From the NCBI RefSeq assembly GCF_914271545.1, contig NZ_CAJZAH010000001.1:620001-684000 (forward strand): DNA of 64,000 nucleotides, written 5' to 3'. The notes below the pieces were generated by a model. That model was not told where the DNA came from. It ran no database searches and worked only from the letters and a program-made list of their open reading frames with translations. Positions 22,962-39,754 of the stretch are shown here, piece after piece (within the stretch, counting starts at the first letter, position 1; each line of letters opens with the position of its first letter). The position numbers and the translations under genes are program-made. This DNA comes from Cupriavidus respiraculi. GTDB lineage: Bacteria; Pseudomonadota; Gammaproteobacteria; Burkholderiales; Burkholderiaceae.

Positions 22962-22978
22962 GGCCGAGCCTCCCGCGT

Positions 22979-23833: not shown

Positions 23834-23841
23834 GCCCCCTC

Positions 23842-26103
23842 CTACATCGCACCGTGAAACGTCCGGTTGATGACGTCCAGCTGCTGCTCCCGGGTCAGCT
23901 TGATGAAGTTGACCGCGTAGCCGGAGACCCGGATCGTCAGCTGGGGATACTTCTCGGGATGCTCCATCGCGTCCTGCAGCGTCTCCCTGTTCAGCACGTT
24001 GATGTTGACGTGGAAACCACCGCTGCCGAAGTACGCATCGAGACCGTCCGTGCCGCGCGTGATCCGCTCCTCCTCGCTGCCGAGCGCGGACGGCACCACG
24101 GACAGCGTCAGCGAGATGCCATCTTCGGCATCGTCGTAGGGAATCTTCGCAACGGACAGCATCGCCGCCAGCGCGCCGTGGGTGTCGCGGCCGTTGGACG
24201 GGTTGGCGCCGGGCGCGAACGGATCGCCGCGCTTGCGGCCGTCCGGGGTACTGCCAGTACCCTTGCCATACACCACGTTCGAAGTGATGGTCAGCACCGA
24301 TTGGGTATGCACGGCGTTGCGATAGCTCGGATACATGCGGATCTTGTTCATCATCATCGAGACCAGCAGTCGCGCGAGTTCATCGGCACGGTCGTCGTTG
24401 TTGCCGAAGTAGGGAAATTCCCCTTCGGTCTCGAACTCGACGATCAGGCCGCGCTCGTCGCGCACGGGCCTGACCTTTGCGTAGCGGATGGCGGAGAGGC
24501 TGTCGGCGCCATGCGACAGCCCGGCGATGCCACAGGCCAGCGTGCGCAGTACGTCCCGGTCATGCAACGCCATCTCCATGGACTCGTAGCAGTATTTGTC
24601 GTGCATGTAGTGGATGACGTTCAGCGCATTGACGTAGGTCTTGGCGAGCCAGTCCATCATCGGGTCCAGCCGCCGCATGACGTCGTCGAACTCCAGCACG
24701 TCGCCGGTGACCGGTGCGAACGGCGGCCCGACCTGCTCCCCCGTCACCTCGTCGCGGCCGCCGTTGAGCGCGTAGAGCAGCGTCTTGGGCAGGTTCACGC
24801 GCGCGCCGAAGAACTGCATCTGCTTGCCCAGGCGCATCGCGGACACGCAGCACGCAATGGCGCAGTCGTCCCCCCACTTGGGCCGCATCAGGTCGTCGGA
24901 TTCGTACTGGATCGAGCTGGTATCGATCGACGTCTTCACGGCGAAGCGCTTGAAGCCATCGGGCAGGCGCGGGGACCAGAAGACGGTCAGATTGGGTTCC
25001 GGCGCGGGCCCGAGGTTGTACAGCGTATGCAGCATGCGGAAGGCGGACTTGCTGACCAGCGTGCGGCCGTCCTCGCCCATGCCGCCCTCGACCTCGGTCA
25101 CCCACACCGGATCGCCGGAAAACAGCTGGTTGTACTCCGGCGCGCGCAGGAACCGTACCAGCCGCCATTTGATGACGAGGTCGTCGATGATCTCCTGGGC
25201 CTGCACCTCGGTGAGCACCCCTTCGCGCAGGTCGCGCTCGAAGTAGATGTCCCAGAACGTCGACAGCCGTCCCGCCGACATCGCCGCGCCGTTCTGCTGC
25301 TTGATGGCGGCCAGGTAGGCGAAGTACGTCCATTGCACGGCTTCGCGGGCATTGCTCGCCGGCTTCGAGATATCGCTGCCGTAGTTCGCCGCCATCGTCT
25401 TGAGTTCCTGCAGCGCCCGCATCTGCTCGGACAGTTCCTCGCGCAGGCGGATGACATCCTCGGTGGAATGCCGGTCGTCCAGTTCTTCCTTCTCGCGCCG
25501 CTTGTGGGCGATCAGCATATCGACACCGTACAGCGCCACGCGGCGATAGTCGCCGATGATCCGGCCCCGCCCGTAGGCGTCCGGCAGCCCCGTTACCACG
25601 GACGACGAGCGCGCCTTGCGGATATCCGGCGTGTAGGCATCGAACACGCCGTCGTTATGCGTCTTGCGGTACTTCGTGAAGACTTCGCCCACGGCGGGGT
25701 CCGGCTCGTAGCCATAGGAGCGCAGGCTCGCTTCCACGACCCGCCAGCCGCCGAACGGCATGATGGCACGCTTGAGCGGCGCGTCGGTCTGCAGGCCGAC
25801 GATGATCTCGTTGTCCTTGTCGATATAGCCCGGCGCATGGGCAAGGATGCCAGAGGGTACCTGCGAGACGTCCAGCACGCCCTTCTCCCGTTCCTGCGCA
25901 AGCAGCGGCGTGATTTTTTTCCAGAGCGCCTTCGTGCGCTCGGTGGGGCCTTCGAGGAAGGCGCCATCGCCTTCGTACGGCGTGTAATTGCGCTGGATGA
26001 AATCGCGCAGGTCGACCCGGGTCTGCCAGGCGCCCGGGGCGAACTTGCGCCAGGCGCCCTCGGTAATCGGGCTCGACAGCCCGAAAGAGAAATCGATGTC
26101 CAT
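23842..26103 (-). CDS. pflB: Pyruvate formate-lyase
   Basis: The 753-residue glycyl-radical enzyme cleaves pyruvate plus CoA to acetyl-CoA and formate. The Cys pair in AIACCVSAM falls at residues 418-419, the same numbers as in the E. coli enzyme. The glycyl-radical motif RVSGYAVNF places the radical Gly at 728, near the C-terminus. The start at 26103 has an AAGGGA ribosome site and aligns with the family; an extension to 26166 crosses the proposed promoter. It heads the pflB-pflA-aspT operon. A conserved element and -10 box lie 72-117 bp upstream of the ATG. Confidence 0.97.
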
Positions 26104-26174
26104 GTTCAATCCCTTCAGCGGCGTACAAGCGAAAATCCGGCTTGCCAAGGCAGCCCGGTCCGGCATGCATCGGT

Positions 26175-26219
26175 ACTCTAGTCAAGCCCCGGGCCGGTTT
26201 CATTGGACGAAAGGGCACA
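26175..26219 (-). promoter_or_regulatory. Low-oxygen-locus element A and -10 box, pflB promoter
   Basis: ATTGGACGAAAGGGCACA (26202-26219, plus strand) matches the element found in six places of this locus: ATTGG, then an ACCAAAGG-like core, then a variable CCAAT half. On the minus strand TAGAGT (26175-26180) lies 33 bp away centre to centre and would be the -10 box for pflB. No FNR-type TTGAT-N4-ATCAA box is present in this intergenic region. Confidence 0.6.
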
Positions 26220-26284
26220 TGGCACAGCAGCAAGTGCGGGCGCCACGCGCGAGGTGGAGGATGGCCCGCGCTACGGCCTGCCCC

Positions 26285-26329
26285 ATTGGTTCAAAGTCCA
26301 TTGCGGACGACTCATGCGGCGGCCACACT
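26285..26329 (+). promoter_or_regulatory. Low-oxygen-locus element B, GNAT promoter
   Basis: ATTGGTTCAAAGTCCATT (26285-26302) is another copy of the element, with both halves nearly intact. CACACT at 26324-26329, 33 bp centre to centre, is a weak -10 candidate for the plus-strand acetyltransferase gene. Confidence 0.5.
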
Positions 26330-26372
26330 GTTCGTGTACCAGACGCTATCCCGCCAGACCACCGCCCGCGCC

Positions 26373-26978
26373 ATGACCGATACGACTCCTTCCCCCGCGA
26401 CCGCCAATCCCGGCCCCTGCTTTCCCGAATGCACGGCCACGCTCGCCAACGGTGCGGCGATCTCGATCCGCGAGGTCGGTGCCGACGACAAGGCAGCGCT
26501 GCTCGCCGCCTTCGACGCGCTGTCGCCCGAGTCCCGCTACACGCGCTTCTTCGCGCCGATGCCGCAGCTGCCGGATGGCGCGCTCGAGCACGCGACGCAT
26601 CCGGACCCCCGGGCCGAGGGCGCACTGGTGGCGGTGGTGCTCGGCGAAGGCACCATCGTGGGCGGCGCGCGCTATGGCGCGGCGCCGGGCGGCGATACGT
26701 GCGAGTTCGCGGTGACGGTGGCCGACGACTGGCACCGGCTCGGGCTGGCCAGCCGCCTGATGACGATGCTGGTCGACATGGCGAGGGCGCGCGGCTATCG
26801 CACGATGGAGGGCTATGTGCTCTCGACCAATGCCGGCATGCGGCGGCTGGCGCGGCGGCTGGGATTCGTCGACCAGGCGTGCCCGGACGATGCGACCACG
26901 CGGATCGTGACGCTGGCGCTGCGCCCCGATGCGCCAGGCCGCCAGGTCGATGGCGCGGACAAGGACCGCGACGGCTGA
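26373..26978 (+). CDS. GNAT family acetyltransferase
   Basis: The 201-residue protein has one GNAT fold (about residues 25-185). The acetyl-CoA loop is in VADDWHRLGLASRLMTML, the C-terminal strand in EGYVLSTNAGMRRLARRLGF, and SPESRYTRFFAPMPQL is typical of GNAT domains that modify acyl-CoA synthetases and other metabolic enzymes. It is divergent from pflB, and its promoter region bears element B. Acetylation of acetate enzymes is a plausible but unproven role. Confidence 0.87.
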   Translation: MTDTTPSPATANPGPCFPECTATLANGAAISIREVGADDKAALLAAFDALSPESRYTRFFAPMPQLPDGALEHATHPDPRAEGALVAVVLGEGTIVGGARYGAAPGGDTCEFAVTVADDWHRLGLASRLMTMLVDMARARGYRTMEGYVLSTNAGMRRLARRLGFVDQACPDDATTRIVTLALRPDAPGRQVDGADKDRDG

Positions 26979-26991
26979 GCCTCCGCCTGCG

Positions 26992-27246
26992 CTACTGGAA
27001 GCGTTCGTGCAGTACGACGACGCTGAGCTTGTGTCCCTTCCAGAACATCCCGTGGATGCGGTCGCGCAGCTTGTGGAGCGCGGCGTCGTCCACGGCGTTG
27101 TACGTCAGTTGCACCGACGGCCGCGAGCCGTCGCCGTCGATATGTTCGAGCCGGTCGTGCGGCGGAAACCCGTAGCGCGTGAGGAACTGGCCGATCTCTT
27201 CGTCCGTCGCGCCGGCGTCCACATTGGTAAGCATCATCAGCGGCAT
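26992..27246 (-). CDS. 84-residue protein of unknown function
   Basis: This small protein starts MPLMMLTNVDAGATDEEI and ends SVVVLHERFQ. It looks like a compact alpha/beta fold: a short helix, strand VQLTYNA, helix AALHKLRDRIHG and a final strand. The ATG at 27246 has an excellent GGAAGGAGA ribosome site and the gene follows ackA by 23 bp, so it is real and part of the pta-ackA operon. I do not recognise a family. Confidence 0.8.
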   Translation of the reverse strand: MPLMMLTNVDAGATDEEIGQFLTRYGFPPHDRLEHIDGDGSRPSVQLTYNAVDDAALHKLRDRIHGMFWKGHKLSVVVLHERFQ

Positions 27247-27269
27247 TGCCGTCTCCTTCCGTTGCGCGC

Positions 27270-28460
27270 CTACGCCGCGCTCGCGCGCGCTTCGAGCAAC
27301 GCGCGGGTATGGCGGGCGATCATCAGTTCCTCGTTGGTCGGGATGGCCCATACCGCCACGGCGCTGTCGGTCGCGCCGATGCGCGGCCCGCCGCCATCGT
27401 TGGCCCGCGCGTCCAGCCGGATGCCGAGCCATGCGCCGTGCCGGCACACGCGGTCGCGGATCGCGGGCGCGTGCTCGCCGATGCCTGCCGTGAAGACCAG
27501 CGCGTCGATGCCCTGCAGGGCGGCGGCGAGCGAGCCCAGTTCGCGCGCGATCCGGTAGCAATACAGGTCGACGGCCAGACGCGCGCCCGGTGCGTCGCTG
27601 TCGAGCAGCGCCCGCATGTCGCCCGTCATGCCCGATACGCCGAGCAGGCCCGAGCGCTTGTAGATCAGGTCCTGCACGGCGCGCGTGTCCATGCCAAGCT
27701 GGTCGATCAGGTACAGGATGACGCCAGGGTCGAGGCTGCCGCAGCGGGTGCCCATCGGTAGTCCGTCGACCGCGGTAAAGCCCATGGTGCTCGCCACGCT
27801 CTTGCCGGCCAGCATCGCGCACATGCTGCTGCCGTTGCCCAGGTGAGCGACCACGGTCCTGCCCCTGGCCGCGATCGGGTCCAGAGCCGGCAGCGCGCTG
27901 GCGATGTATTCGTACGAGAGCCCATGGAAGCCATAGCGGCGCACGCCGCGCTCGACGATATCGGCCGGCAGCGCGAATGCCTGCGCCAGCTCGGGTTGGG
28001 TACGGTGATATGCCGTGTCGAAGCAGGCGACCTGCGGCAGCTCCGGGCGCTGCTCCAGCAGAGCGCGGATGGGCTTGAGGTTGTGCGGCTGGTGCAGCGG
28101 CGCCAGCGGACACAGCGCCTCCAGCGCCGTGAGCACCGCGCCATCGACGCGCACCGGGCCGCTGAACTCCATGCCGCCGTGCACGACGCGGTGCCCGACC
28201 GCCGCCAGCCGGTGGCCGCTGCCGTGGCTGCGCAGGAAGTCGGCGATGAAGCCGATGGCTGCTTCGTGCGCCAGCGCATTGCCGGCGCCCCAATCCCGTG
28301 TCTCCAGCACCTCGCCGCTGCCCGACTTCGCCTGAAACACCGGCGCATTGGACATGGCGTCCATGCTGCCGCGCAGCACCAGCGTCTCGGACGCCATCTC
28401 GAACGCACTGAACTTGATGCTGGACGAGCCGGTATTGATGACCAGAACGACATCCGCCAT
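27270..28460 (-). CDS. ackA: Acetate kinase
   Basis: The 396-residue product has the ASKHA fold signatures VINTGSSSIKFSAFEM at the start, VGHRVVHGGMEFS, FDTAYHRTQP, GFHGLSYEYIAS and AHLGNGSSMCAM. It makes ATP and acetate from acetyl phosphate. The gene lies 4 bp after pta and before the 84-residue gene. With PflB and Pta it forms a complete route from pyruvate to formate and acetate with one ATP. Confidence 0.96.
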   Translation of the reverse strand: MADVVLVINTGSSSIKFSAFEMASETLVLRGSMDAMSNAPVFQAKSGSGEVLETRDWGAGNALAHEAAIGFIADFLRSHGSGHRLAAVGHRVVHGGMEFSGPVRVDGAVLTALEALCPLAPLHQPHNLKPIRALLEQRPELPQVACFDTAYHRTQPELAQAFALPADIVERGVRRYGFHGLSYEYIASALPALDPIAARGRTVVAHLGNGSSMCAMLAGKSVASTMGFTAVDGLPMGTRCGSLDPGVILYLIDQLGMDTRAVQDLIYKRSGLLGVSGMTGDMRALLDSDAPGARLAVDLYCYRIARELGSLAAALQGIDALVFTAGIGEHAPAIRDRVCRHGAWLGIRLDARANDGGGPRIGATDSAVAVWAIPTNEELMIARHTRALLEARASAA

Positions 28461-28464
28461 GGTG

Positions 28465-29403
28465 TTACCCCACTACGTTTCCGGCTTCGCGCCGCGCGCG
28501 GGCCACCAGCGCCGCCACCGCGGCCGAGGCCAGGCGCGTCATCACGGAATCAGCCCGGCTGGTCAGGATGATGGGCACGCGCGCGCCAAGCACGATCCCG
28601 GCGGCGTCGGCGCCGGCCAGGAACGACAGGCTCTTGGCCAGCATGTTTCCCGCTTCGAGATCGGGCACGATCAGCACGTTGGCGCTGCCGGCAACCGGCG
28701 AGTCGATGTGCTTGACGCGGGCCGCCTCCAGATTGATGGCGTTGTCCAGCGCGAGCGGCCCGTCGACCACGGCGCCGGTGATCTGGCGCCGGTCGACCAT
28801 CTTGCACAGTGCCGCGGCCTCGATGGTCGAAGGCACCTTGGGGTTGACGGTCTCCATGGCGGACAGGATCGCTACCTTGACGTCCTTCACGCCCAGCGCG
28901 TGCGCCAGGTCGATGGCGTTCTGCAGGATGTCGGCCTTCTCTTCCAGGGTCGGCGCGATATTGATCGCCGCGTCGCTGATGATCAGCGCCTCCGGGTAGC
29001 CGGGCACGTCCATGACGAAACAGTGGCTGACCCGCCGCGCGGTTCTCATCCCCGCGTCGCGCTTGACCACCGCAGCCATCAGTTCGTCGGTATGCAGGCT
29101 TCCCTTCATCAGCGCCTGGGCGCGGCCCTCGCGGACCAGTTGCACCGCGTTCGCGGCCGACTCCTGGCTGAAGGCGCTGTCGACGATCTCCATGGCGCCG
29201 ATGTCGATGCTCCACTCCTTGGCGGTTGCGCGGATGCGCGCCTCGGGGCCCACCAGCAGTGGCTGGATCAGGCCGAGCGATGCGGCCTCCGCGGCGCTCT
29301 CCAGGGCATAGCGGTCGACGGGATGCACCACCGCGGTCGGTGTGGGCGGCAGCGTCTTGCAGACATCGATCAGGCGCTGGTACTTCTCGTGGGTCTGTGC
29401 CAT
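28465..29403 (-). CDS. pta: Phosphate acetyltransferase
   Basis: The 312-residue single-domain enzyme of the PTA/PTB family has LIQPLLVGPEARIRA near the start, ALMKGSLHTDELMAAV and, toward the end, VPDLEAGNMLAKSL. It converts acetyl-CoA (or a related acyl-CoA) to the acyl phosphate used by AckA. It is short, like phosphotransacetylases without the N-terminal regulatory part. GAGGA precedes the ATG at 29403; longer readings lack a ribosome site. Element C lies about 125 bp upstream. Confidence 0.93.
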   Translation of the reverse strand: MAQTHEKYQRLIDVCKTLPPTPTAVVHPVDRYALESAAEAASLGLIQPLLVGPEARIRATAKEWSIDIGAMEIVDSAFSQESAANAVQLVREGRAQALMKGSLHTDELMAAVVKRDAGMRTARRVSHCFVMDVPGYPEALIISDAAINIAPTLEEKADILQNAIDLAHALGVKDVKVAILSAMETVNPKVPSTIEAAALCKMVDRRQITGAVVDGPLALDNAINLEAARVKHIDSPVAGSANVLIVPDLEAGNMLAKSLSFLAGADAAGIVLGARVPIILTSRADSVMTRLASAAVAALVARARREAGNVVG

Positions 29404-29498
29404 ATGCGGTCCTCGCCAACGGTGGATGACGGTGCCGGCCCGGTGCCCTGCGCTGGACGGCCCGCGTGCCGGACCGCAGCCGTGCCGCACCCTGACCA

Positions 29499-29544
29499 AG
29501 GGTGTGTCGCGGGCAAGGGGAAAACAATTGGGCCATGGTCCAAT
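29499..29544 (-). promoter_or_regulatory. Low-oxygen-locus element C, pta promoter
   Basis: On the minus strand ATTGGACCATGGCCCAAT (29527-29544) has both ATTGG and CCAAT halves. CACCCT at 29499-29504 is a weak -10 candidate at 34 bp centre to centre. The element lies in the gap between the end of the 336-residue gene and pta, so pta has its own promoter. A CACCCT/AGGGTG hairpin near 29490-29504 overlaps the -10 candidate. Confidence 0.55.
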
Positions 29545-29569
29545 AGCCCGTGGCCGCGCGTCGCCGGCC

Positions 29570-30580
29570 TCAAAGGAACTGTTCCGCGCGGTCCAGCAGA
29601 TAGCCGGACGGCAGCATGTCTGCACGCTGGACCTGTACCAGCGCGAACAGGCGCTCGAACGGCGGATCGCCCGGCACGCGCGCGTACTGCAGTTCCAGTT
29701 CGGCGGCAGCGCAGCGATCGGTGGGCTGCACCACGACGTTCATTGCATCGAGCCTCAGGCGCCGCTGCGTGACATGGAAGTACGCGTCGGCATGGGAAAG
29801 CACGTCCACCAGCATGTCCAGTTGCCAGTCCAGCCGCTCGCCTGGCAGCGGGGCGGCCGCCAGCGCGCGCTCGTTTTCCGCGAACTCCGCCTCCAGTTCC
29901 CGCCGGGCCGTCTCATCCGGCCCGGCGGCCTCGCCCAGCAGGCCTTCGGCGCCAACCGCGGCCAGTTTCAGCATGCGCAGGCGCCCAGCCAGCAACGCCG
30001 TCTCGGGGCCGGTACGGTCGCCGCGATGCCGATCGTGCGCCTGATGGCCCAGCGCCTGCATTGCAAGCTGGTCAAGCAGCCGCGCCTCGATCTCCTCGCG
30101 CAGCTCCGGCAGGGTCGGGGCGCAGAGGCGGAAGCGATGATCCTGGAACGACACCGTGGTGCGCGGCACGTCGCTGCGCATCACGTCGCCCTCTAGCGCC
30201 ACGCCTAGCGTGCGGCGCTCGCTCATCAGCAGGCCCATGACGGCCACTACGCTGCGCGCGGCGGGCACCGCATCGAAACAGGCACGCAGCTCCGGCGAAC
30301 GCGTCACCGTCAGCGTGACGTCGTGCGGCGTGGCGAAGAAGGCGTGGATATAGGGGTCGTCTGCCCACGTACCGGCGGCCAGTCCGCGCGGCGCCGGCAG
30401 GGCCGCCGCCATGTCGCGCAGGTATGCTCGCGCCTGCCGCGTGGCCGGCGCGAGCCGCGCCCGTGCCCGCGTGGCCAGGCGCAGATGCGGATGTAGCGCG
30501 AACATGCGCGCCATGCTGTCGTTCAGCGCCTGGTCCGGATCGTCGTCCCCGGCACGGCGCCAGCGGCCGAAAATGCCCAT
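29570..30580 (-). CDS. 336-residue protein of unknown function in the fermentation locus
   Basis: The product starts MGIFGRWRRAGDDDPDQALN and is soluble and mainly helical, rich in Arg, Ala and Leu. The segment DPYIHAFFATPHDVTLTVTR is distinctive. The GAGGG ribosome site before ATG 30580 is good. It is third in the operon DUF3141 gene - fabI - this gene, with a 50-bp gap. I do not recognise a domain. The position suggests a role linked to the acyl metabolism of the operon. Confidence 0.75.
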   Translation of the reverse strand: MGIFGRWRRAGDDDPDQALNDSMARMFALHPHLRLATRARARLAPATRQARAYLRDMAAALPAPRGLAAGTWADDPYIHAFFATPHDVTLTVTRSPELRACFDAVPAARSVVAVMGLLMSERRTLGVALEGDVMRSDVPRTTVSFQDHRFRLCAPTLPELREEIEARLLDQLAMQALGHQAHDRHRGDRTGPETALLAGRLRMLKLAAVGAEGLLGEAAGPDETARRELEAEFAENERALAAAPLPGERLDWQLDMLVDVLSHADAYFHVTQRRLRLDAMNVVVQPTDRCAAAELELQYARVPGDPPFERLFALVQVQRADMLPSGYLLDRAEQFL

Positions 30581-30630
30581 GCGGATGCCCTCGCCTGTGG
30601 GTTGCCACGCCGGGTCAGCTGCGTGGCGTG

Positions 30631-31413
30631 CTACGCCATGATGTTGACGCCCCCATCCACGTAGAGGGTCTCGCCGGACAGCCGCCTGGCGTACGGCGTC
30701 GCCAGGAAGGCGCAGGTGTAGCCCACGTCCATGATGTCCACCAGCTCGCCCAGCGGCGCGCGCGCGGCAGCCTCGTTCAGCAGCAGGTCGAAGTCCTTCA
30801 GGCCCGAAGCCGCGCGGGTCCGAAGCGGCCCGGGAGACAGCGCATGCACGCGGATGCCGCTCGGGCCAAGCTCGTAGGCCAGGTAGCGTGCGCAGGCTTC
30901 CAGCGCCGCCTTGACGGGCCCCATCACGTTGTAGTTCGGCACCACCTTGTTGGCGCCGTAATAGCTCATCGTGAACATGGCACCGCCATGGTCCATCAGC
31001 GGCGCCACCCGCCGCGCGAGGCGGACGAAGGAATGGCACGAGACGTCCATCGCGCGCAGGAAGCCATCGAGCGGGCAGTCGATGAGCCCGCCCTGCAGGG
31101 ACTCCTTGGGCGCCCATGCCATGGAGTGCACGAAGATGTCCAGCCGGCCCCAGGTGGACCGGATCGCATCGAAAAGCGCGTCGCTTTCCGCCTCCTCCGA
31201 CACGTCCAGCCGCATGAAGACTGGCGCCTGCATCTCGCGCGCCAGCGGCTCGACATAGGGCCGCGATTTCTCGTTCAGATAGGTGATGGCGAGCTCGGCG
31301 CCAAGCTCGTGGAACGCCTTGGCGCAGCCGTAGGCAATGGAGTGCTCGTTGGCGATGCCGCACACCAGCGCCTTCATGCCGGTAAGGATGGGACGGTGAC
31401 CAGCGTCGTTCAT
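30631..31413 (-). CDS. fabI: Enoyl-ACP reductase, FabI type
   Basis: The 260-residue enzyme has the FabI cofactor motif GIANEHSIAYGCAKAFHE, the SMAWAPKESLQGG loop and the active site YNVMGPVK with Tyr161 and Lys168 spaced Y-x6-K. The last lines GETLYVDGGVNIMA are also typical. It reduces trans-2-enoyl-ACP with NADH. Its place between a DUF3141 gene (12 bp upstream) and an unknown gene suggests a specialised, condition-specific copy rather than the housekeeping enzyme, but the rest of the genome is not visible. GGAG ribosome site. Confidence 0.93.
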   Translation of the reverse strand: MNDAGHRPILTGMKALVCGIANEHSIAYGCAKAFHELGAELAITYLNEKSRPYVEPLAREMQAPVFMRLDVSEEAESDALFDAIRSTWGRLDIFVHSMAWAPKESLQGGLIDCPLDGFLRAMDVSCHSFVRLARRVAPLMDHGGAMFTMSYYGANKVVPNYNVMGPVKAALEACARYLAYELGPSGIRVHALSPGPLRTRAASGLKDFDLLLNEAAARAPLGELVDIMDVGYTCAFLATPYARRLSGETLYVDGGVNIMA

Positions 31414-31425
31414 GGCATGCTCCGT

Positions 31426-33798
31426 TCAGTGTTGTTGCGGGCGGGAGGCCGAGCGGCGCGGCGCGGCGCGGCGGGGTGCGGGCCGGGCATCGCCGTCTCC
31501 GCGCAGCGGCGCCGGCGGCTTGCCCAGCAGCGTGCGGATGCGCGCCACCATCGCCTTGCGCTCCGCGCTCGGCATGCCGCCCATCGCGCGCGGATCGCCT
31601 TCCAGCTTGTCAATCAGCAACAGCATCCGCTCGCGGTCCGCGCCGTCCGCCAGCAGCCGAGGCAGCGACTCCAGTGCCCGTTTCGGATCGGTGCGCACGA
31701 TGACTTCCTGCAGGCCGCGGATCGGGCGCCAGTTCTCGATCGCCACTTCGGGCAGGAATTGGGTGTAGTCCTGGGCCATGTCCTTGCGCAGTTCCAGCCG
31801 GGCCAGCGGCAACGGCTTGCCGCGCTCGGAAAGCAGCGCCGCGACGCGGGCGAATGCTTCCGGATAGCCGCCGGCATCCATGGCCGCCAACGCGTCTTTC
31901 ACGGTGCCGTCGGCATCGGCAGCGCTGGCGGCGGGCCCAGGAGCCGTGGCCGCGTGCGGCTCCCAGAGCGCGAACAGATTGGCGTAGAGGTTGAAGAAGA
32001 CGGCCTCGGTGGTGGCATCGCGCAGGGCGCGGTAGTAGTCCCACCAGGCGCTCGCGGACTCAGCCATGCCCTTTTCGGCCCGGCGCAACGGATGCTCGTG
32101 CTCCATGGCCAGCCGGTTGGCGGCCACTGCCTCGGCCGCCGGCGCAAGCCAGCGCAGCCAGGGGTTCAGGTCCGAAAACGCCCAGTTCTGGACCCGCAGC
32201 GGATGGAACTCGCGCAGCAGCCGGGCGCTGTACTCGCTGGACATGGCCTGCACGGCCGGCTGCGCGAACAGCTCATAGGCGCGCTGCGTAAACTCGGACA
32301 GGGCCGCCACCGCCTGAAACGGCCGCTCGTCCTCGCGATGGAAGCGATTGAGGCGGCCTGCCACCTCCTCCAGTTCGATCTCGTGGAAGGTCACTTCGTA
32401 CTGCGGCCCGGCGCCCGCTTCCTCCTGCGGCCCGCCGTCCTCGATGCGCATGCCATAGAGCCCCGGCGGCAACAGCTCGATCGATTGCAGCACGGAGACG
32501 ATCTGCGCATGCTCCTTCTTCGCGACCTTGCCCGAGACGAAAATCCCCAGATGGCCCACGCTCTCGTGCATCAGCGCCACGATGACCTGGCCGCGCGCCT
32601 TGATCTCCGCGGTGCTCGAATAGGTATCCGCCACCCAGTTGAAAGCCTGCTGGGGCGGCGTCACGTTGTCTCCCATCGAGGCGAACAGCACGATGGGCAC
32701 CTTCACGTCGCGCAGGTCGAACGTCTGCCCCTGGGCACCCTTCACGTCGCCCGACCACAGGCGGTTGCCGACGAACAGATTTTGCGTGATCCACTCGATC
32801 TCCTCGCGGTTCATCAGGTAGTAGCCGCCCCACCAGCGCTCGAAGTCGAGGAAGCGCGGCGGCTCGGTGTCGGCCATGTCGAACACGTGGTAGTACTTGT
32901 CGACCAGTGTATTGGCCGGATCCAGGTTCTCGAAGTTCTGGACAAGATAAGCGCCGTCGAACTTGCCGTTGCCCAGGTCGGCCGCCAGCGAGGCAAGCCA
33001 GGTACCGCCGAGCAGCCCGCCTGAGTAGCGCATGGGGTTGTCGCCCTCGCCCGGCTGCCATGCGCCGCTCCAGTACGCCATGGGCGCGCCGTTGATGACC
33101 ACCGGCCCGGTCTGGTCCGGGTCCGCGGCGGCCACCATCATCGCGGCCCAGCCGCCCTGGCAATTGCCGATGATCGCTGGCTTGCGGGAATGTGGGTGCA
33201 GCGCGCGCACCTGCCTGACGAACTGCTGCTCCGCCACGCAAACGTCCAGCAGCGTTTGGCCCGGCTCCGGCTCCTGGAAGAACACCACGAAGTACACGGG
33301 ATGGCCGGCGCGCAGCGCCACGCCCACCTGCGAGTCGTCCTTGAAGCCGCCGATGCCCGGGCCGTGGCCCGCGCGCGGGTCGATGATGATGTAGGGGCGC
33401 CGCTTGTCGTCGACCGAGACGCCTTCCGGCGGCACGATGCGCACGAGCGCGTAGTTCACCGGGCGCGCGAAGCCGCGTCCATCCAGCACCATCTCGTAGT
33501 CGAAATGCAGCACTGGAACCGGTCCGGCGACGGCCCGCTCGACAAAGCCGGTGCCGCGCCGGCGCATCGTGTCCCAGAACAGCACACCGCGCTGCACGGC
33601 GTCGATCGCGTAGGCGGCGCAGGCGGCGGGGTCCATGCTGGCCGCGGCGAACGCCTGGGCGCCGCCGGCGTCCGTCCCGAACGCCTTCGACAGGCGCTCC
33701 TGCAGGGCGGCCTGCGCCCGCTTCGTGCGCCGGTTCAGCACTACCGCTGTCTTTTGCCCGACGTCTCTCGCGTGGGCCAGTCGTGCTCCGGGGTCCAT
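31426..33798 (-). CDS. DUF3141 family, PHA-synthase-like alpha/beta hydrolase
   Basis: The 790-residue protein contains an alpha/beta-hydrolase core with the nucleophile elbow IIGNCQGGWAAMM, the GxCxGG pattern of polyhydroxyalkanoate synthases in which Cys replaces Ser (Cys213). VLFASMGDNVTPP supplies the Asp (377) and HESVGHLGIF the His (416), giving a complete PhaC-like triad. A long helical C-terminal part (about 430-790) is specific to DUF3141. No signal peptide. Function is unproven: acyl-CoA or polymer chemistry is likely. GAGGA ribosome site at 33798. It heads an operon with fabI behind element D. Confidence 0.88.
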   Translation of the reverse strand: MDPGARLAHARDVGQKTAVVLNRRTKRAQAALQERLSKAFGTDAGGAQAFAAASMDPAACAAYAIDAVQRGVLFWDTMRRRGTGFVERAVAGPVPVLHFDYEMVLDGRGFARPVNYALVRIVPPEGVSVDDKRRPYIIIDPRAGHGPGIGGFKDDSQVGVALRAGHPVYFVVFFQEPEPGQTLLDVCVAEQQFVRQVRALHPHSRKPAIIGNCQGGWAAMMVAAADPDQTGPVVINGAPMAYWSGAWQPGEGDNPMRYSGGLLGGTWLASLAADLGNGKFDGAYLVQNFENLDPANTLVDKYYHVFDMADTEPPRFLDFERWWGGYYLMNREEIEWITQNLFVGNRLWSGDVKGAQGQTFDLRDVKVPIVLFASMGDNVTPPQQAFNWVADTYSSTAEIKARGQVIVALMHESVGHLGIFVSGKVAKKEHAQIVSVLQSIELLPPGLYGMRIEDGGPQEEAGAGPQYEVTFHEIELEEVAGRLNRFHREDERPFQAVAALSEFTQRAYELFAQPAVQAMSSEYSARLLREFHPLRVQNWAFSDLNPWLRWLAPAAEAVAANRLAMEHEHPLRRAEKGMAESASAWWDYYRALRDATTEAVFFNLYANLFALWEPHAATAPGPAASAADADGTVKDALAAMDAGGYPEAFARVAALLSERGKPLPLARLELRKDMAQDYTQFLPEVAIENWRPIRGLQEVIVRTDPKRALESLPRLLADGADRERMLLLIDKLEGDPRAMGGMPSAERKAMVARIRTLLGKPPAPLRGDGDARPAPRRAAPRRSASRPQQH

Positions 33799-33876
33799 AG
33801 GTCGATCCTCGTCGTTGCCGCCGCAGGCGCCGGCCCCTGCCGCCACCGCGGACCGCCGGCGTCGCTTATCCCGACC

Positions 33877-33950
33877 AGAATGCGCGGTGGCAGGACTCGC
33901 CACAAGGCACCTTTGGTCCAATACCGATGCCACGCGTGCGCGCATAGGCT
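33877..33950. promoter_or_regulatory. Low-oxygen-locus element D, divergent promoters
   Basis: On the minus strand ATTGGACCAAAGGTGCCT (33905-33922) is a strong copy of the locus element. On the plus strand TAGGCT (33945-33950) is the proposed -10 box for the patatin/Omp85 gene. On the minus strand CATTCT (33877-33882) is the candidate for the DUF3141 operon. Both lie 34 bp from the element centre, on opposite sides, so one site could serve both genes. Confidence 0.6.
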
Positions 33951-34059
33951 GGGAGGATCGTGCCCGTCGTCAATGGCACATGCGCGGCGCGTCCTGGCAG
34001 GCAACGCAGTGGAACCCAGCACGGTCGGACAGCATGGGCCCCGCTTGTAAGGATCCGGC

Positions 34060-36321
34060 ATGCGAGCCTCTCTGCTCTCGACCTTGGGTGCGGCCGCCCT
34101 TCTCTGCGGGACGGCGATGGCGCAATCGGACGCGCCATCCTTGTCCGATGCCGGTGCGGCAACGGTGGGCGGCACGCTGTCCCGGCCGGCTCCGCTTGAG
34201 CGGCCCCGCATCTGCCTGGTGCTCTCGGGCGGCGGCGCGCGCGGGGCCGCCCACATCGGTGTGCTGCGCGTGCTGGAAATGCTGCGGGTTCCCGTCGACT
34301 GCATCGCCGGCACCAGCATGGGGTCGCTGGTCGGCGCCGCCTATGCGTCCGGCATGACGCCCGACGAAATGGCGGAGGTCGTGTCGGGGCTGACCACGCG
34401 CGACCTCTTCAGCGAGCGCCCGCCGCGCAGGAATCTGTCGATGCGCCGCAAGATGGACGACCGCACGAACCTGTTCACGCCCGAGGTCGGCGTCCGCGAC
34501 GGCCGGCTTCAGCTGCCCAAGGGCGCCGTGACGGGCGTTCAGGTCGAACGCGTGCTGCGGGCGCTGGTGCGCGTGCCGGGCGACGTCGATTTCGACAAGC
34601 TGCCCATTCCCTACCGCGCGGTGGCGACCGACCTGGTGGCGGGCACGCCCGTGGTGTTCTCGCGCGGCGAACTCGTGCGCGCCATGCGCGCCAGCATGTC
34701 GGTGCCGGGCGTGGTCTCGCCGGTGGAATATAACGGCACGCTGCTGGTCGACGGCGGGCTCACCGACAACCTCCCCGTCGACGTCGCGCGCAGGATGGGC
34801 GCGGACATCATCATCGCCGTCAATCTCGGCACGCCGCTGATGCCCCGCGACGAACTGGGCTCGATCATCGGCGTGACCGGGCAGATGGTGAACATCCTGA
34901 CCGAGCAGAACGTGCGGGCCTCGCTCGCGAGCCTGCGGCCCGGCGACATCCTGATCGAGCCCGCGCTGGGCGACTTCTCGGCGGGCAACTTCGACCGCCT
35001 GTCGGTGACCATTCCGATCGGCGAGACGGCCGCGCTGGAGGAGACCGACCGCCTGGCGGCACTGTCGATCCCGCCGGAGCAATACGCGGCGCTGCGGGAG
35101 CGCCAGCGCACCGTGCCCGCACCGGACGTGAGACCGGTCGACGAGATCCGGCTGGCCCCGCTGCAGCGGGTCAATCCGGAATTCGCGCTCAGCACGCTGC
35201 GGACACGCCCGAACGAACCGCTGGATGCGCAGACGCTCGACTCGGACATGGAGCGCCTGTTCGGGACCGGCGACTTCGAGCATGTCAATTACCGCATTCT
35301 GGAGGAGCCCGGCCGGCGCATCCTGGGGGTGGATGCCATCGAGAAATCCTGGGGCCCGGACTACGTGCGCTTCGGCCTCGGCCTTGCCACCGACTTCCGC
35401 GGCGAGGCCTACTTCAACCTGCTGGCGAGCCATCGGCGCACGTGGATCAACGCGCTGGGCGCCGAATGGCGCAACGATCTGCAGGCCGGCCAGACCAGCA
35501 GCTTCACCAGCGAGTTCTACCAGCCTATCGACGTGCGCCAGCGCTTTTTCGTGGCGCCCCGCGTGCAACTGGAGCGGCGACCCGTGTACGTGTACAGCGG
35601 CAAGGACCGCATCGCCACGTACGACCTGCGCCGCCTGGATCTGGCGGTCGACGTGGGGGCGCGCATCGGCACGCATGGCGAGGCGCGGCTGGGCGTGCTT
35701 ACCGGGCAGCAAAGCGCCTCGCTGCGCACCGGTCCCGCGAGCCTCTCGCCCACCAACGATGGCGCCGACCGCGGCGCCATCACCACGCGACTGCTGCTGG
35801 ATCAGCTCGACAGCACGACGTTCCCGCGCGCGGGCTATGCCGGCACCGTCAATGTGTATGCCTCGATGCCGGGCCTCGGCGCGGACCAATCCTACGTCAG
35901 GGCGGACGCCGACGGCACCTACGTCGTCTCCTACGGCAGGCATACGCTGAACCTGGGCTTCAAGGCCGGCAGCCATGTGGGCGGCAATCCGCTGCCCCGC
36001 TACGACTACTTCCAGTGGGGCGGCTTCCTGCATCAGTCGGGCTTCACCACGGGGGAATTGCTGGGAGGCGACCTGCAGTTCGGCCGCGCCGTCTACTACA
36101 ACCGGCTCGCCAAGCAATCGCTGCTGGAGGGAATCTACGCGGGCGCCTCGCTCGAAGTGGGGCGCATGGGAAGACAACTGGTGCCGGGCGGCCCGACCGG
36201 CGTGCTGGTATCCGGCTCGCTCTTTCTCGGTCTGGATACGCCGGTGGGTCCGCTGTACCTGGCCTACGGCAAGGGCAGCGGCGGCCGCCACGCGTTCTAT
36301 CTGTTCCTCGGCAGGCCGTAG
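34060..36321 (+). CDS. Patatin phospholipase with outer-membrane barrel (PlpD-like)
   Basis: The 753-residue exported protein has a signal peptide (about residues 1-22) and a patatin domain with LVLSGGGARGAAHIGVL (about 55), GTSMGSLVGAAYASG (nucleophile Ser) and VDGGLTDNLP (Asp). A POTRA-like linker and a C-terminal Omp85/surface-antigen barrel follow (about 430-753), with many short alternating strands. This is the type V-d layout of PlpD, in which the lipase is placed outside or at the outer membrane. It is divergent from the DUF3141 operon and shares element D. AAGGA ribosome site. Confidence 0.9.
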   Translation: MRASLLSTLGAAALLCGTAMAQSDAPSLSDAGAATVGGTLSRPAPLERPRICLVLSGGGARGAAHIGVLRVLEMLRVPVDCIAGTSMGSLVGAAYASGMTPDEMAEVVSGLTTRDLFSERPPRRNLSMRRKMDDRTNLFTPEVGVRDGRLQLPKGAVTGVQVERVLRALVRVPGDVDFDKLPIPYRAVATDLVAGTPVVFSRGELVRAMRASMSVPGVVSPVEYNGTLLVDGGLTDNLPVDVARRMGADIIIAVNLGTPLMPRDELGSIIGVTGQMVNILTEQNVRASLASLRPGDILIEPALGDFSAGNFDRLSVTIPIGETAALEETDRLAALSIPPEQYAALRERQRTVPAPDVRPVDEIRLAPLQRVNPEFALSTLRTRPNEPLDAQTLDSDMERLFGTGDFEHVNYRILEEPGRRILGVDAIEKSWGPDYVRFGLGLATDFRGEAYFNLLASHRRTWINALGAEWRNDLQAGQTSSFTSEFYQPIDVRQRFFVAPRVQLERRPVYVYSGKDRIATYDLRRLDLAVDVGARIGTHGEARLGVLTGQQSASLRTGPASLSPTNDGADRGAITTRLLLDQLDSTTFPRAGYAGTVNVYASMPGLGADQSYVRADADGTYVVSYGRHTLNLGFKAGSHVGGNPLPRYDYFQWGGFLHQSGFTTGELLGGDLQFGRAVYYNRLAKQSLLEGIYAGASLEVGRMGRQLVPGGPTGVLVSGSLFLGLDTPVGPLYLAYGKGSGGRHAFYLFLGRP

Positions 36322-36361
36322 TGTCGCGACCGTGGCCGGCGGCGCACCGCCCCGCGCGCCG

Positions 36362-36838
36362 CTAGCGCACGGTATAGCCGCGCCCTTCCATGCATGCGGC
36401 GAAGGCGCGGTAGAAACCGTCCTGCGCGCTCTGGGCCTGCGCCTGGGCCGCGGACTCCGCCTCACGGCGGTTCTGACGCGCCCTCGCCCCGCCCGCCATG
36501 GTGCCTGCGGCGGCGCCGATGCCGGCACCGGTGCCCGCGTCGCCGGCGATGCCGCCGATCACCGCGCCACCCACGGCGCCACGGGCGGCGCCCCGCAACC
36601 TCTCGCCCCCGCCGGACCCGCCCGACGGTGGCGGAGCAGCCGCCTGCGACTGGGCGCCACTGGTGCTGTTGTGCGCCCACGTCTGGCATTCGCCTTCGTC
36701 GCGCTGCTGCTGTTGCGGATCCTGTCCCTGCGCGGGATACGCGACGGGCGGGCTTTGCGCCGGCACGCCCAGCGATACCGCCAGCAGCGCCGACGCGACG
36801 CCCGCCCGTGCCGCACTGCTCCTTGTCACGTTCGCCAT
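36362..36838 (-). CDS. Exported glycine-zipper protein
   Basis: The 158-residue product starts at ATG 36838, since longer readings cross the proposed promoter. A signal peptide ends near VPAQ. A Gln/Pro-rich linker with Cys and a Gly/Ala repeat follow: GAVGGAVIGGIAGDAGTGAG, a glycine-zipper helix that can insert in or pack against a membrane. The C-terminal part (DGFYRAFAACMEGRGYTVR) is a motif seen in other exported glycine-zipper proteins. Element E and TAGACT lie just upstream. Confidence 0.8.
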   Translation of the reverse strand: MANVTRSSAARAGVASALLAVSLGVPAQSPPVAYPAQGQDPQQQQRDEGECQTWAHNSTSGAQSQAAAPPPSGGSGGGERLRGAARGAVGGAVIGGIAGDAGTGAGIGAAAGTMAGGARARQNRREAESAAQAQAQSAQDGFYRAFAACMEGRGYTVR

Positions 36839-36870
36839 GCCGTCGCCCCCGTTGCATGCGTCATTCAGAA

Positions 36871-36915
36871 AGTCTATGAGCACGGAGGCGGCGCACAATT
36901 GGACCAAGGTCGCCC
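36871..36915 (-). promoter_or_regulatory. Low-oxygen-locus element E and -10 box, glycine-zipper gene
   Basis: ATTGGACCAAGGTCGCCC (36898-36915, plus strand) has a perfect ATTGGACC half. On the minus strand TAGACT (36871-36876) lies 33 bp away centre to centre. The resulting start point would be near 36864, giving a 26-base leader before the ATG at 36838. Confidence 0.6.
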
Positions 36916-36960
36916 ATGCCGCGATCGGCGCGGGGCGCGCCCCTGCACGGCCGCGTGGCT

Positions 36961-37599
36961 TCAGTCGGCAGCCGGCACGCCGCGCCGCTGCGGATGCATG
37001 CCGACCCGATCCGCCATGCGCACGAGATCGGGAAGCGAGCCGACCTCGAGCTTCTGCATGACGCGCGCGCGGTGCGCCTTGATGGTCTTTTCCACGGTGC
37101 CCAGTTCGCTGGCGACCTGCTTGTTAAGGCGCCCCGTCACCACCCATGCCATCACCTCGCGCTCGCGCGGCGTGAGGCGGCCCACCAGGTCGCGCAAGTG
37201 CTGCAGCTCCTGCCTGCGCGCGTAGGCTTCCAGCGCCGCGCAGCACGCCTTGGCGAGCGCGGGCAACAGCGTGGTCGTGGTAACGGGCTTCTGCAGGAAA
37301 TCGACGGCACCGGCCAGCATGGCCTGTACGACGGCCGGCACATCGGCGTAGCCGGAAAGCATCACGACCGGCACATCGGGGCCGAGGCGGCGCTGCAGTT
37401 CGATGCCGCTCAGGTCGGGCATCCTGACATCCAGCACCAGGCAGGCCGGTCCGGTCTCCTGCGACCACGCCTCCAGGAATGCCCCGGTGGAACTGAACGA
37501 GCGGGTGCGATAACCGTGCGACTGGACCAGTCTGGCCAGGCCGCGCGCCACCGTCTCCTCATCGTCGACGACGTACACGGCCACATCGGGATCGCTCAT
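36961..37599 (-). CDS. FixJ/NarL-type response regulator of the low-oxygen locus
   Basis: The 212-residue protein has a receiver domain (about residues 5-118) with VYVVDDEETVARGLA, phospho-acceptor in CLVLDVRMPDLSG, VVMLSGYAD and DFLQKPV. The LuxR-type output domain has LTPREREVMAWVVTGRLNKQ and VEKTIKAHRARVMQK. The second of two adjacent ATGs (37599) has the better distance to GGAAGGAG; the first (37602) is possible. No kinase gene is adjacent. Its own upstream region carries element F, so it is the obvious candidate for the factor that binds all six elements. Confidence 0.92.
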   Translation of the reverse strand: MSDPDVAVYVVDDEETVARGLARLVQSHGYRTRSFSSTGAFLEAWSQETGPACLVLDVRMPDLSGIELQRRLGPDVPVVMLSGYADVPAVVQAMLAGAVDFLQKPVTTTTLLPALAKACCAALEAYARRQELQHLRDLVGRLTPREREVMAWVVTGRLNKQVASELGTVEKTIKAHRARVMQKLEVGSLPDLVRMADRVGMHPQRRGVPAAD

Positions 37600-37782
37600 C
37601 ATCGTGCTCCTTCCGTGCTGCTGTCGCGGCGCGCCGGGGAAGGAAGAAACCGAATGCATCCGCGACGCCGTCGGGACCGATCCCTGCTGCAAGGGTCCGG
37701 TACCGCAATGCCGCCAGTCGGACCCGCGATCCAGCCGGGGCGAGCCGAGGGGCGCGGACGCTGCCTGCCCCGTCGTTCTCAC

Positions 37783-37880
37783 GTTATAGGATCACCACAA
37801 AAGGGGTGTCAATCCCTTTGTCGCATACAAGTCTCAGCGCGCGGAAGCGGCCGTCCGTATTGGACCAAAGGCCAATACGG
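37783..37880 (-). promoter_or_regulatory. Promoter region of the response regulator with element F
   Basis: The gap 37600-37918 holds this region. Element F is a perfect palindrome with 9-bp arms (37855-37863 and 37872-37880, arms CCGTATTGG and CCAATACGG, core ACCAAAGG). On the minus strand GAGACT (37830-37835) lies 35 bp away and resembles the -10 boxes of the other sites. A second, near-consensus promoter, TTGACA (37807-37812) and TATAAC (37783-37788) with 18 bp between, lies closer to the gene. A loose ACAAA/TTTGT inverted repeat overlaps its -35 box. Confidence 0.65.
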
Positions 37881-37918
37881 ACATGGCATGACATTCGCCC
37901 GCCGGCGGCATGACGCGG

Positions 37919-38902
37919 TCACTCCACCCGGATCTTCGCGGTCTTGACCACCTCGCTGTACTTCTTCAGGTCGGCCTGGATCTGCTTGCCGAACGCCTCG
38001 GAGCTGTTGCCCACGGGCACGATGCCCAGCGTCGCCAGCCGCTCCCGCGTGTCGGGCAGGTTGACCACGGCGTTCAGTTCGCCGGACAGCTTGTCGACGA
38101 TCTCCTTCGGCGTGTTGGCCGGGGCCAGCAGCCCAACCCACGATTCGCTGACCAGGCCCGGTACGCCCGACTCGGCGATCGTCGGCACATCGGGCAGTGC
38201 CGGCACGCGGCTCGCGCCCGATACGGCGATGGCCGTGGCCTTGCCGCCCTTCACATACTGCTGGGCGCCCGCCACCGCCGTGTACAGCAGCGGCAGCGTG
38301 CCGCCGACGAGGTCGCCCATCGCCTGCCCGCCGCCCTTGTATGGCACGTGGACCATGTTCAGCCCCGTGCGCGCCTTGAGCAGTTCGCCAGCCAGATGCG
38401 GCGTGCTGCCGGTGCCCGCGCTGCCGTACGACAGTCCGCCTTCGCGCGATTTGGAGTAGGCCACCAGCTCCTGCAGGTTCTTCGCGGGCACCGACGGGTG
38501 GGCGATCAGGATCAGCGCGGCATCGCCGATCTTGCCGATGGGCACGAAGTCCTTGACGGGATCGAACGGCACCTTGGCGTAGACATGGGGATTGATGACC
38601 ATCGTGCCGTCGAAGCCGAGCACCAGCGTGTAGCCGTCGGGCGCGGCCTGCGCCACCATCGCGGTGCCGATGTTGCCGGAGGCGCCGGGCTTGTTCTCGA
38701 CCACGACCTGCTGGCCCAGCCGCTGCCCTAGCTTGTCGGCAACGACGCGGGCGCTGGTGTCCGACACCCCGCCGGGGGCGAACGGCACGATCAGCCGGAT
38801 GGGCTTGCTGGGATAGGCCTGCGCCATGGCGCTACCCGCGAAGACGGCGTTGCCGGCGAGCGCGAGCGCGCCCAGTGCCTGGACGATGTGGCGGCGTTTC
38901 AT
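37919..38902 (-). CDS. Bug/TctC-family periplasmic solute receptor
   Basis: The 327-residue protein has a signal peptide ending AMAQ and then [41 protein letters not shown] and HVPYKGGGQAM, all family marks. It is the last gene of the operon behind the sigma-54 promoter at 42957-42971, so its ligand is probably the acid degraded by the CoA-transferase and lyase of that operon. GGAGGAG ribosome site. Confidence 0.93.
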   Translation of the reverse strand: MKRRHIVQALGALALAGNAVFAGSAMAQAYPSKPIRLIVPFAPGGVSDTSARVVADKLGQRLGQQVVVENKPGASGNIGTAMVAQAAPDGYTLVLGFDGTMVINPHVYAKVPFDPVKDFVPIGKIGDAALILIAHPSVPAKNLQELVAYSKSREGGLSYGSAGTGSTPHLAGELLKARTGLNMVHVPYKGGGQAMGDLVGGTLPLLYTAVAGAQQYVKGGKATAIAVSGASRVPALPDVPTIAESGVPGLVSESWVGLLAPANTPKEIVDKLSGELNAVVNLPDTRERLATLGIVPVGNSSEAFGKQIQADLKKYSEVVKTAKIRVE

Positions 38903-38965
38903 TGAGTCTCCTCCTGTTCGTTGACAGTCGTTGTTGTGTCGTACCGCGGGTGATGCGAAATCGCT

Positions 38966-39754
38966 TCAGACGACCATGGGCGTCGTGGCGCCGTCCATCG
39001 AGAGGACCGCGCCGGAGATATAGCTCGCGCGCGCCGACGCGAGGAACAGCACGGCGTCGGCGATTTCCTCGGGCGTGGCCAGGCGCCCCAGCGGCACGCG
39101 CGCATTGGCGCGGGCGAGCATCTGCTCGACCGTGACGCCGTTCAGCGCCGCCTCGGCTTCCAGGCCCTGCTGCAGCCGCTCGGTATGCGTGGCCGCCGGG
39201 TTGACGGCGTTCACGCGCACGCCCTGCCCGCCATAGGCATGGGCAAGCCCGGCGGTGGCGAGCATCAGCGCCGCGTTGGCCGCGCCGCCCGGAAGATGCG
39301 TCGGGCTCGCGACCTTGCCGCCCATGCCGACGACATTGACGATAGCGCCGGCGCCCTGCGCCGCCATCCGCTTGATGACGGGGTCGATGACGTTGAGGTA
39401 GCTGAAGTACTTCGCGTCCATCGCCTTGCGCCATGCCTGCGGCGTCAGCTCCGCGGGCGGCGTACGCCGGGCCGCCCCGGCGGAATTGACGAGGATGTCG
39501 ATGCCACCGAGTGCCGCCACCGCGGCCTGCGCCGCGCGCGCGGCATCGTCGGCATCGGTGAGGTCCGCGGCGAATGTCGCGGGCGTGGGGCCCAGCCCTT
39601 GCAGGGCCGTCCGGGCCGCCACCAGGTTCGCCTCGCTGCGCGACACGATGGCCACGAGCGCGCCCTCGCGCAGGAACGCCGCGGCGCAAGCGCGCCCGAT
39701 GCCGCGGCTGCCGCCGGTGACGAGCACCCGCTTGCCCTTCAGTTGCAGATCCAT
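38966..39754 (-). CDS. SDR-fold protein lacking the catalytic triad
   Basis: The 262-residue protein has a good Rossmann start (VLVTGGSRGIGRACAAAF), NSAG at about residue 90-93 and the usual SDR C-terminal part (GAVLSMDGA). The active-site Ser is Gly143 in VNVVGMGGK, and where YxxxK is expected it reads GGAAN, so Tyr is Gly156 and Lys is Asn160. It may bind nucleotide without classical reduction, or use other residues. It lies between two Bug receptors in the sigma-54 operon. GAGGAG ribosome site at 39754. Confidence 0.88.
   Translation of the reverse strand: MDLQLKGKRVLVTGGSRGIGRACAAAFLREGALVAIVSRSEANLVAARTALQGLGPTPATFAADLTDADDAARAAQAAVAALGGIDILVNSAGAARRTPPAELTPQAWRKAMDAKYFSYLNVIDPVIKRMAAQGAGAIVNVVGMGGKVASPTHLPGGAANAALMLATAGLAHAYGGQGVRVNAVNPAATHTERLQQGLEAEAALNGVTVEQMLARANARVPLGRLATPEEIADAVLFLASARASYISGAVLSMDGATTPMVV

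Follow-up and report, generated by a model that had tools for sequence, protein, structure and literature searches.

A palindromic promoter element in a fermentation locus of Cupriavidus respiraculi is probably the operator of a FixJ-type response regulator

Which protein reads the short inverted repeat that stands before pyruvate formate-lyase, acetate-forming and several uncharacterized genes in a fermentation and low-oxygen locus of Cupriavidus respiraculi? The repeat occurs in a stretch of 64,000 nucleotides (assembly GCF_914271545.1, contig NZ_CAJZAH010000001.1, positions 620,001 to 684,000; here called the window), the G+C content of which is 70%. An initial annotation, made from the letters of this DNA, had listed six intergenic copies of the form ATTGG-CCAAT, each with a -10-like hexamer 33-35 bp away, and had named the response regulator encoded at 36961-37599 as the natural candidate for the binder. 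The present analysis makes it probable (roughly 0.85) that the element is the operator of this regulator and its homologues, which would act as activators from about -43, at 33-35 bp from a -10 hexamer of the form YANNNT. Direct reading of the window confirmed all six 18-mers and all seven hexamers; in the following lines, distances run from the centre of the site to the centre of the hexamer.

26202-26219, minus strand: element before pflB, TGTGCCCTTTCGTCCAAT in the direction of the gene; half next to the promoter preserved, other half degraded; the weakest copy
26175-26180, minus strand: -10-like hexamer TAGAGT of pflB, +33
26285-26302, plus strand: element before the GNAT acetyltransferase gene, ATTGGTTCAAAGTCCATT
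26324-26329, plus strand: -10-like hexamer CACACT of the GNAT gene, +33
29527-29544, minus strand: element before pta-ackA, ATTGGACCATGGCCCAAT
29499-29504, minus strand: -10-like hexamer CACCCT of pta-ackA, +34
33905-33922, no single strand: element in the divergent region between DUF3141-fabI (minus) and patatin/Omp85 (plus), intact half proximal to patatin
33877-33882, minus strand: -10-like hexamer CATTCT of DUF3141, +34
33945-33950, plus strand: -10-like hexamer TAGGCT of patatin, +34
36898-36915, minus strand: element before the glycine-zipper gene, GGGCGACCTTGGTCCAAT
36871-36876, minus strand: -10-like hexamer TAGACT of the glycine-zipper gene, +33
37859-37876, minus strand: element upstream of the response regulator, ATTGGCCTTTGGTCCAAT, within an 11-bp-arm palindrome at 37853-37882
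37830-37835, minus strand: hexamer GAGACT of the regulator, +35
37783-37812, minus strand: sigma-70-like TTGACA-18 bp-TATAAC, as read from the letters, between the element and the regulator gene

Around homologues of the window regulator in other genomes, a fuller version of the palindrome is seen. The pattern ATTGG-CCAAT is refined by 53 non-redundant sites to ATTGGACCAAGGTCCAAT, that is ATTGGAC-N4-GTCCAAT, in which C at position 7, G at position 12 and T at position 18 are invariant. These sites, selected on the 18 bp alone, derive from 102 distinct ones. Of these, 22 were discarded because they lay over 60 bp within called genes or lacked a suitable gene start at up to 400 bp; the 21 divergent regions, with 42 entries, were treated separately; and removal of sites with similar flanks reduced the 59 one-directional sites to 53 (the gene calls stem from a codon-position heuristic with some wrong frames, and some genomes are possibly counted twice). 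A hexamer YANNNT is located exactly at +34 in 39 of the 53 sites, and at 141 other offsets the mean is 0.94 and the maximum 4 of 53. The narrower TANNNT is found at +34 in 23/53, and its peak persists when the sites are thinned harder, to a flank-identity limit of 45% (19/42). Distances of +33 and +35 occur in four and three of the 53 sites; in the divergent-region entries, where such a promoter is required on one side only, YANNNT is at +34 in 17/42 and at +33 in 7/42. This phasing bears out the position near -43, 33-35 bp from the -10, that had been read from the window copies.

The hexamers of the relatives also correct the assessment of the window hexamers. CACACT, CACCCT and CATTCT, previously regarded as weak and possibly due to chance, fit YANNNT; GAGACT of the regulator, counted among the strongest, is the sole one that misfits. 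The palindrome at 37859, in turn, was described with 9-bp arms and actually has 11-bp arms (GTCCGTATTGG/CCAATACGGAC); in relatives, strong conservation stops at the inner 18 bp. Judged by eye, the promoter-proximal half is the better one at pflB, patatin, the glycine zipper and the regulator. A general rule to this effect finds no support: the proximal half is better in 25, worse in 19 and equal in 15 of 59 sites. Near small-membrane-protein, PPK2-like or patatin genes, sites repeatedly come in pairs exactly 19 bp apart (L046:10297/10316, L314:17694/17713, L173:29842/29861), an arrangement that would suit two adjacent dimers. Position 5 of the hexamer is C in 47% of the 53 sites, which differs from the TAnAAT reported for B. 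cenocepacia (PMC4603805). Use of another sigma factor at these promoters is possible, judging from the hexamers.

One fixed distance between site and promoter is the mark of an activator that has to contact the polymerase; a repressor has no such need. Because a single distance prevails in 39 of the 53 promoters, activation is favoured over repression. If the regulator repressed, the site would overlap the -35 region and block sigma-70 promoters, and the regulator gene does carry a sigma-70-like promoter close below its site. The consensus, however, puts the site itself in the place of the -35 box, with no other conserved block up to the -10, and repression appears quite unlikely.

Could the sites be copies of a dispersed repeat, or palindromes that resemble one another by chance in a genome so rich in G+C? 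A pattern of the kind first read, with up to three mismatches, gave four matches against a shuffle mean of 0.76, and four were reached in 2 of 100 shuffles; TTGGACCAAAGG occurs exactly twice in the 5.59-Mb genome, both times at the window locus. With a matrix built from the 53 non-redundant sites, none of them from the window genome and many from its genus, the six window sites rank 1-5 and 7 in the 64 kb. The two best, 37859 (score 30.0) and 29527 (28.4), are singly far above chance, the best score in 40 surrogate windows being 16.2 (on average 1.15 hits at scores of at least 5 and 0.3 at scores of at least 10). The copies at 36898 (15.9), 26285 (13.7) and 33905 (11.4) are each singly possible by chance; three such sites inside 11 kb are not expected. 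What speaks for chance is the pflB copy at 26202 and the behaviour of loose matches: allowing three mismatches, the plain palindrome is found at 14 places in the whole genome against 9 for the reversed control, and such matches are mostly noise. In 100 genomes, on the other hand, 43 sites were found against 3 matches of the reversed pattern, and in relatives the flanks vary while the 18 bp and the distance to the -10 remain constant. By these controls, together with the matrix scores and the genome search, a repeat or chance origin is rejected for the strong copies, and as an account of the whole family it is highly improbable. The place that ranks above the pflB copy, 10382 (CTGATACCCAGGTCCGAT), is the sole further one in the window scoring above 5; it has CACAAT at exactly +34 and lies within chance.

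A sequence-only model, derived from the 39 promoters that have YANNNT at +34, was run against the whole genome with E values up to 10; of 664 first-look candidates, 150 were scored. The eight match lines in the own genome all fall into two loci. C1:649499, C1:649527, C1:656873 and C1:657859 represent three window sites (29527 on both strands, 36898 and 37859), the one before pta-ackA being the top match (E 0.0012); C3:565131, C3:565148, C3:568966 and C3:569438 represent three sites of a second locus. The genome-wide search, a kind of check that the initial annotation had proposed, finds no scatter of strong matches; the weaker window sites 33905, 26285 and 26202 are absent among the matches listed, and weak sites elsewhere may be missed too.

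The candidate binder consists of a receiver domain (PF00072, 7.2e-23) and a GerE/LuxR domain (PF00196, 1.1e-19), i.e. it has the NarL/FixJ-type architecture. In 97 loci, the density of sites falls with the distance from its homologues: 0.38 per kb within 300 bp downstream (11 sites, control 1), 0.081 per kb at 300-1500 bp downstream (9 sites, control 0) and 0.0116 per kb farther away (16 sites, control 2); the few loci that were fetched for a motif match, not for the regulator, add to the last bin only. Within the genus, a site with at most one mismatch is present in 15 of the 23 genomes that have a close regulator (E < 3e-58) and in 5 of 37 others (Fisher 6e-5). Within the family, 11 of 60 genomes have a homologue at E < 1e-50 and hold 20 of 22 sites; sites are present in 6 of these 11 and in 2 of the 49 others (Fisher 2e-4). 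For both comparisons, the thresholds were set after the lists had been viewed, and kinship is ignored in the statistics. The sites also follow the recognition helix, which reads EKTIKAH in the window regulator: EKT[IV]K is found in 15 of 80 homologues from named loci, and a site lies up to 1.5 kb downstream in 7 of these 15 against 2 of 64 without it, one homologue being unassigned (Fisher 6.5e-5; the sample is not neutral, as the fetching patterns included the peptide [VA]EKTIK[IAV]H). Linkage, co-occurrence and helix association thus support the regulator that had been put forward from its position. A cross-genome search with the half-site ATTGGACCAAAGG had given 12 places against 1 in the control, only some of them near the regulator, and was replaced by the full palindrome.

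The operator has a counterpart in that of DosR/DevR of Mycobacterium tuberculosis, likewise a LuxR-type response regulator. The core GGAC-N4-GTCC is common to both (DosR box TTSGGGACTWWAGTCCCSAA, PMC2275270). The core contacts of DosR are K179, K182 and N183 (PMC5999986); the first two correspond to the lysines of EKT[IV]K and are kept in all ten aligned homologues, whereas the position of N183 is occupied by A, V or I, and the three contacts do not occur together. The flanks differ as well, TGGAC here against GGGAC in the DosR box: in place of the third G/C of GGGAC...GTCCC, the 53 sites have T in 75% and A in 81%. Over its full length, the regulator resembles StyR and FixJ more closely than DosR, and the regulon genes seen here come from other families. 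StyR (1yio) is the closest solved sequence (E 4e-41 over the receiver and the DNA-binding domain), with the recognition helix EVTVK instead of EKTIK; FixJ has RTIE where the clade of the window regulator has KTIK, and its DNA-reading helix is not shared.

The second locus, on contig C3, encodes PPK2, a small membrane-like protein, DUF3300, DUF2950, a histidine kinase and a receiver-only protein, followed by genes that are read as an RND-type pump. The first pump gene is 73-84% identical to counterparts in five congener loci, and in Cupriavidus sp. EM10 (L173) the corresponding place is annotated as an RND pump gene. Kinase, regulator and receiver-only gene adjoin one another in C. campinensis (L063) and in L296. 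A contig of a further congener, G100, combines homologues of both loci: the small membrane protein, PPK2, patatin, the glycine zipper, a fragment of the first pump gene and the 84-aa protein, continuing with the receiver-only protein, the regulator, the kinase, DUF2950 and DUF3300, and, farther away, GNAT, fabI, ackA, pta and DUF3141. Because G100 holds both sets on one contig, the window locus and the C3 locus look like parts of one cluster. Four sites lie in the first 20 kb of that contig and none in the second part, where DUF3141 is located.

From the gene order in relatives, a FixL-like kinase would be the partner of the regulator. The L051 kinase is FixL-like (best match the FixL chimaera 4gcz, 1.4e-55), and the C3 kinase, composed of HisKA and HATPase, is 48% identical to it over 241 aa. 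PAS domains are present in five of nine kinases scanned, which are neighbours of the regulator clade or the C3 kinase (L051, L283, L065:8550, L043 and L286), and absent in four (L292, L296, L299 and C3); these four and two of those with PAS (L283, L286) make up the six kinases scanned in the genus. Of two PAS domains aligned, that of L051 carries a histidine where FixL has its haem histidine, and that of L283 does not. The outcome for haem sensing is mixed. A receiver-only gene with a nearby site is present on C3 and in relatives, resembling fixT, which is induced by FixLJ in alphaproteobacteria (PMC7078487); the four-cysteine motif reported for Caulobacter FixT contrasts with three cysteines in the receiver-only protein of the window genome.

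Several observations weigh against the proposed operator-regulator pair. At 29 DUF3141 loci of congeners (26 with homologues of 65-69% identity, 3 of 45-47%), a strong site is found in only two. pflB is present in 3 of 60 genomes, and no strong site precedes it in the two other congeners that bear it (G134, G148); at individual orthologous promoters the site is thus patchily conserved. The pflB copy in the window scores 5.2 and 3.4 on the two strands, singly within chance, and rests on its place and hexamer. The regulator gene has an atypical hexamer at +35 and below it the strong-looking promoter at 37783-37812, with a long leader before the start codon; this promoter suggests that the regulator could be transcribed without need of the element, and for these reasons autoregulation is uncertain. 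Eight of the 23 regulator-bearing genomes of the genus have no site with at most one mismatch, and five of the 37 others have one; in four of the eight (G100, G069, G121, G122), the receiver-only gene has more strongly degraded sites next to it. The window genome carries the regulator and the kinase (with the receiver-only gene) on different contigs, and the C3 kinase, having no PAS domain unlike FixL, has no evident sensor. Finally, of the two genomes in which a strong site precedes DUF3141, one (G137) lacks a regulator match at E 1e-45. The last point would suit another transcription factor that controls the cluster of kinase, regulator and receiver-only gene, and the sites, lying near the regulator gene and not inside it, indicate control of the cluster but do not identify the controlling factor. 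Such a factor is unlikely, since sites are enriched beside the regulator in loci of several phyla, their presence tracks the recognition helix of the regulator, and the core equals the DosR box with two of three DosR contact residues in common.

If the regulator is the binder, the system could work in the following manner: a phosphorylated regulator dimer would bind both half-sites, GGAC and GTCC, and activate the promoter whose YANNNT -10 is 33-35 bp away, mostly 34 bp in relatives, the site at about -43 presumably substituting for the -35 box, as the geometry suggests. The window part of the regulon would comprise pta-ackA, DUF3141-fabI, patatin, the glycine zipper, perhaps the regulator itself, probably GNAT and possibly pflB; the C3 part would comprise the FixL-related kinase, the receiver-only protein behind a site and the RND-type pump. 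By gene order and site, the receiver-only protein may form a FixT-like feedback arm. The signal would be low oxygen or a shortage of energy; the fermentation genes make the former plausible, and energy shortage or a redox signal would serve equally. The lxa locus of Burkholderia cenocepacia, likewise a gene cluster of Burkholderiales, serves low oxygen and anoxic survival and, as PMC6127331 notes, shares gene types with the DosR regulon; its candidate oxygen-sensing regulator is reported there to be the Anr-like BCAM0049, in contrast to the FixJ-like candidate here. No FNR/Anr box (TTGATNNNNATCAA) is found with at most one mismatch in 22801-39000, in agreement with the initial annotation, which had seen none before pflB. 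The window genes are the following:

36961-37599, minus strand: response regulator, receiver + GerE/LuxR, candidate binder
36362-36862, minus strand: glycine-zipper protein, proposed target; homologues in the regulator's cluster in several relatives
34060-36321, plus strand: patatin-like phospholipase with Omp85 domain, proposed target
31426-33843, minus strand: DUF3141 protein, first gene of the DUF3141-fabI unit, proposed target
30631-31413, minus strand: FabI-type enoyl-ACP reductase (PF13561; the name FabI is taken from the initial annotation)
28465-29553, minus strand: phosphate acetyltransferase (pta), proposed target
27270-28460, minus strand: acetate kinase (ackA)
26992-27246, minus strand: 84-aa protein behind ackA, no Pfam family; homologues of 44-54% identity in congener clusters
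26370-26978, plus strand: GNAT acetyltransferase, proposed target
23842-26166, minus strand: pyruvate formate-lyase (pflB), possible target

The true start of pflB is probably near 26103, because its -10 sits at 26175-26180. A patatin homologue (68%) in G122 is also preceded by a site (L314:17713). In L312 and L315, a site is immediately followed by a homologue of the 84-aa protein, which gives the mere impression of an RNA-binding protein; in L290, a small gene like it follows the site. Between pta and fabI, 29570-30598 encodes a 342-aa protein with no Pfam domain above the cut-off and a homologue of 46% identity in the G100 cluster (L313).

How far does the arrangement extend beyond the genus? 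In a set of loci labelled by their record titles (L068-L142), 23 sites were found, two of them in Burkholderiales. YANNNT is at exactly +34 in six of the 23, against about 0.8 expected (background 1.66% per orientation): in Bradyrhizobium, an unassigned metagenome-assembled genome (MAG), a Verrucomicrobia MAG (twice), a Gemmatimonadetes MAG and a Desulfobacterales MAG. Two of the six (L114, L076:5768) are in weaker or possibly coding places. On the symbiosis plasmid pSYMBR3459 of Paraburkholderia phenoliruptrix (L174), which carries a regulator homologue, sites at 22266, 26930, 32052 and 37624 lie between annotated genes and precede TerC-family and TrkA-domain genes as well as small hypothetical genes adjoining glgX and glycogen phosphorylase; this suggests a wider regulon there. 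In G148, a site with TAGGCT at +34 (L283:7582) stands beside an acetoacetate decarboxylase-like gene and a DUF3734 patatin and points away from the decarboxylase gene; it may mark a further metabolic branch of the regulon.

Among the papers searched, in which logos are not text and subscription papers are mostly not included, none on bacteria was listed for the element string, and none listed by words deals with this regulon, judging by title and the beginning of the abstract. For DUF3141, DUF3300, DUF2950, patatin/Omp85 and the 84-aa protein, genes of unknown function that are grouped in several genomes of the genus, the analysis supplies a complete promoter model, consisting of operator, spacing and -10, and a candidate binder. 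It also offers an angle on specificity, as the lysine that contacts the DosR box accompanies the site in an otherwise FixJ-like regulator clade. A broader reading, which we regard as tentative and somewhat less than even in probability, is that of a widespread two-component regulon in which a DosR-type code is read by a FixJ-type regulator: the same clade, operator and 34-bp geometry are shared by Burkholderiales and the MAGs that bear the labels Verrucomicrobia, Desulfobacterales and Gemmatimonadetes. As with DosR in mycobacteria, it may then serve a dormancy or energy-saving programme, to which acetate-forming fermentation, polyphosphate kinase 2, patatin and efflux would contribute.

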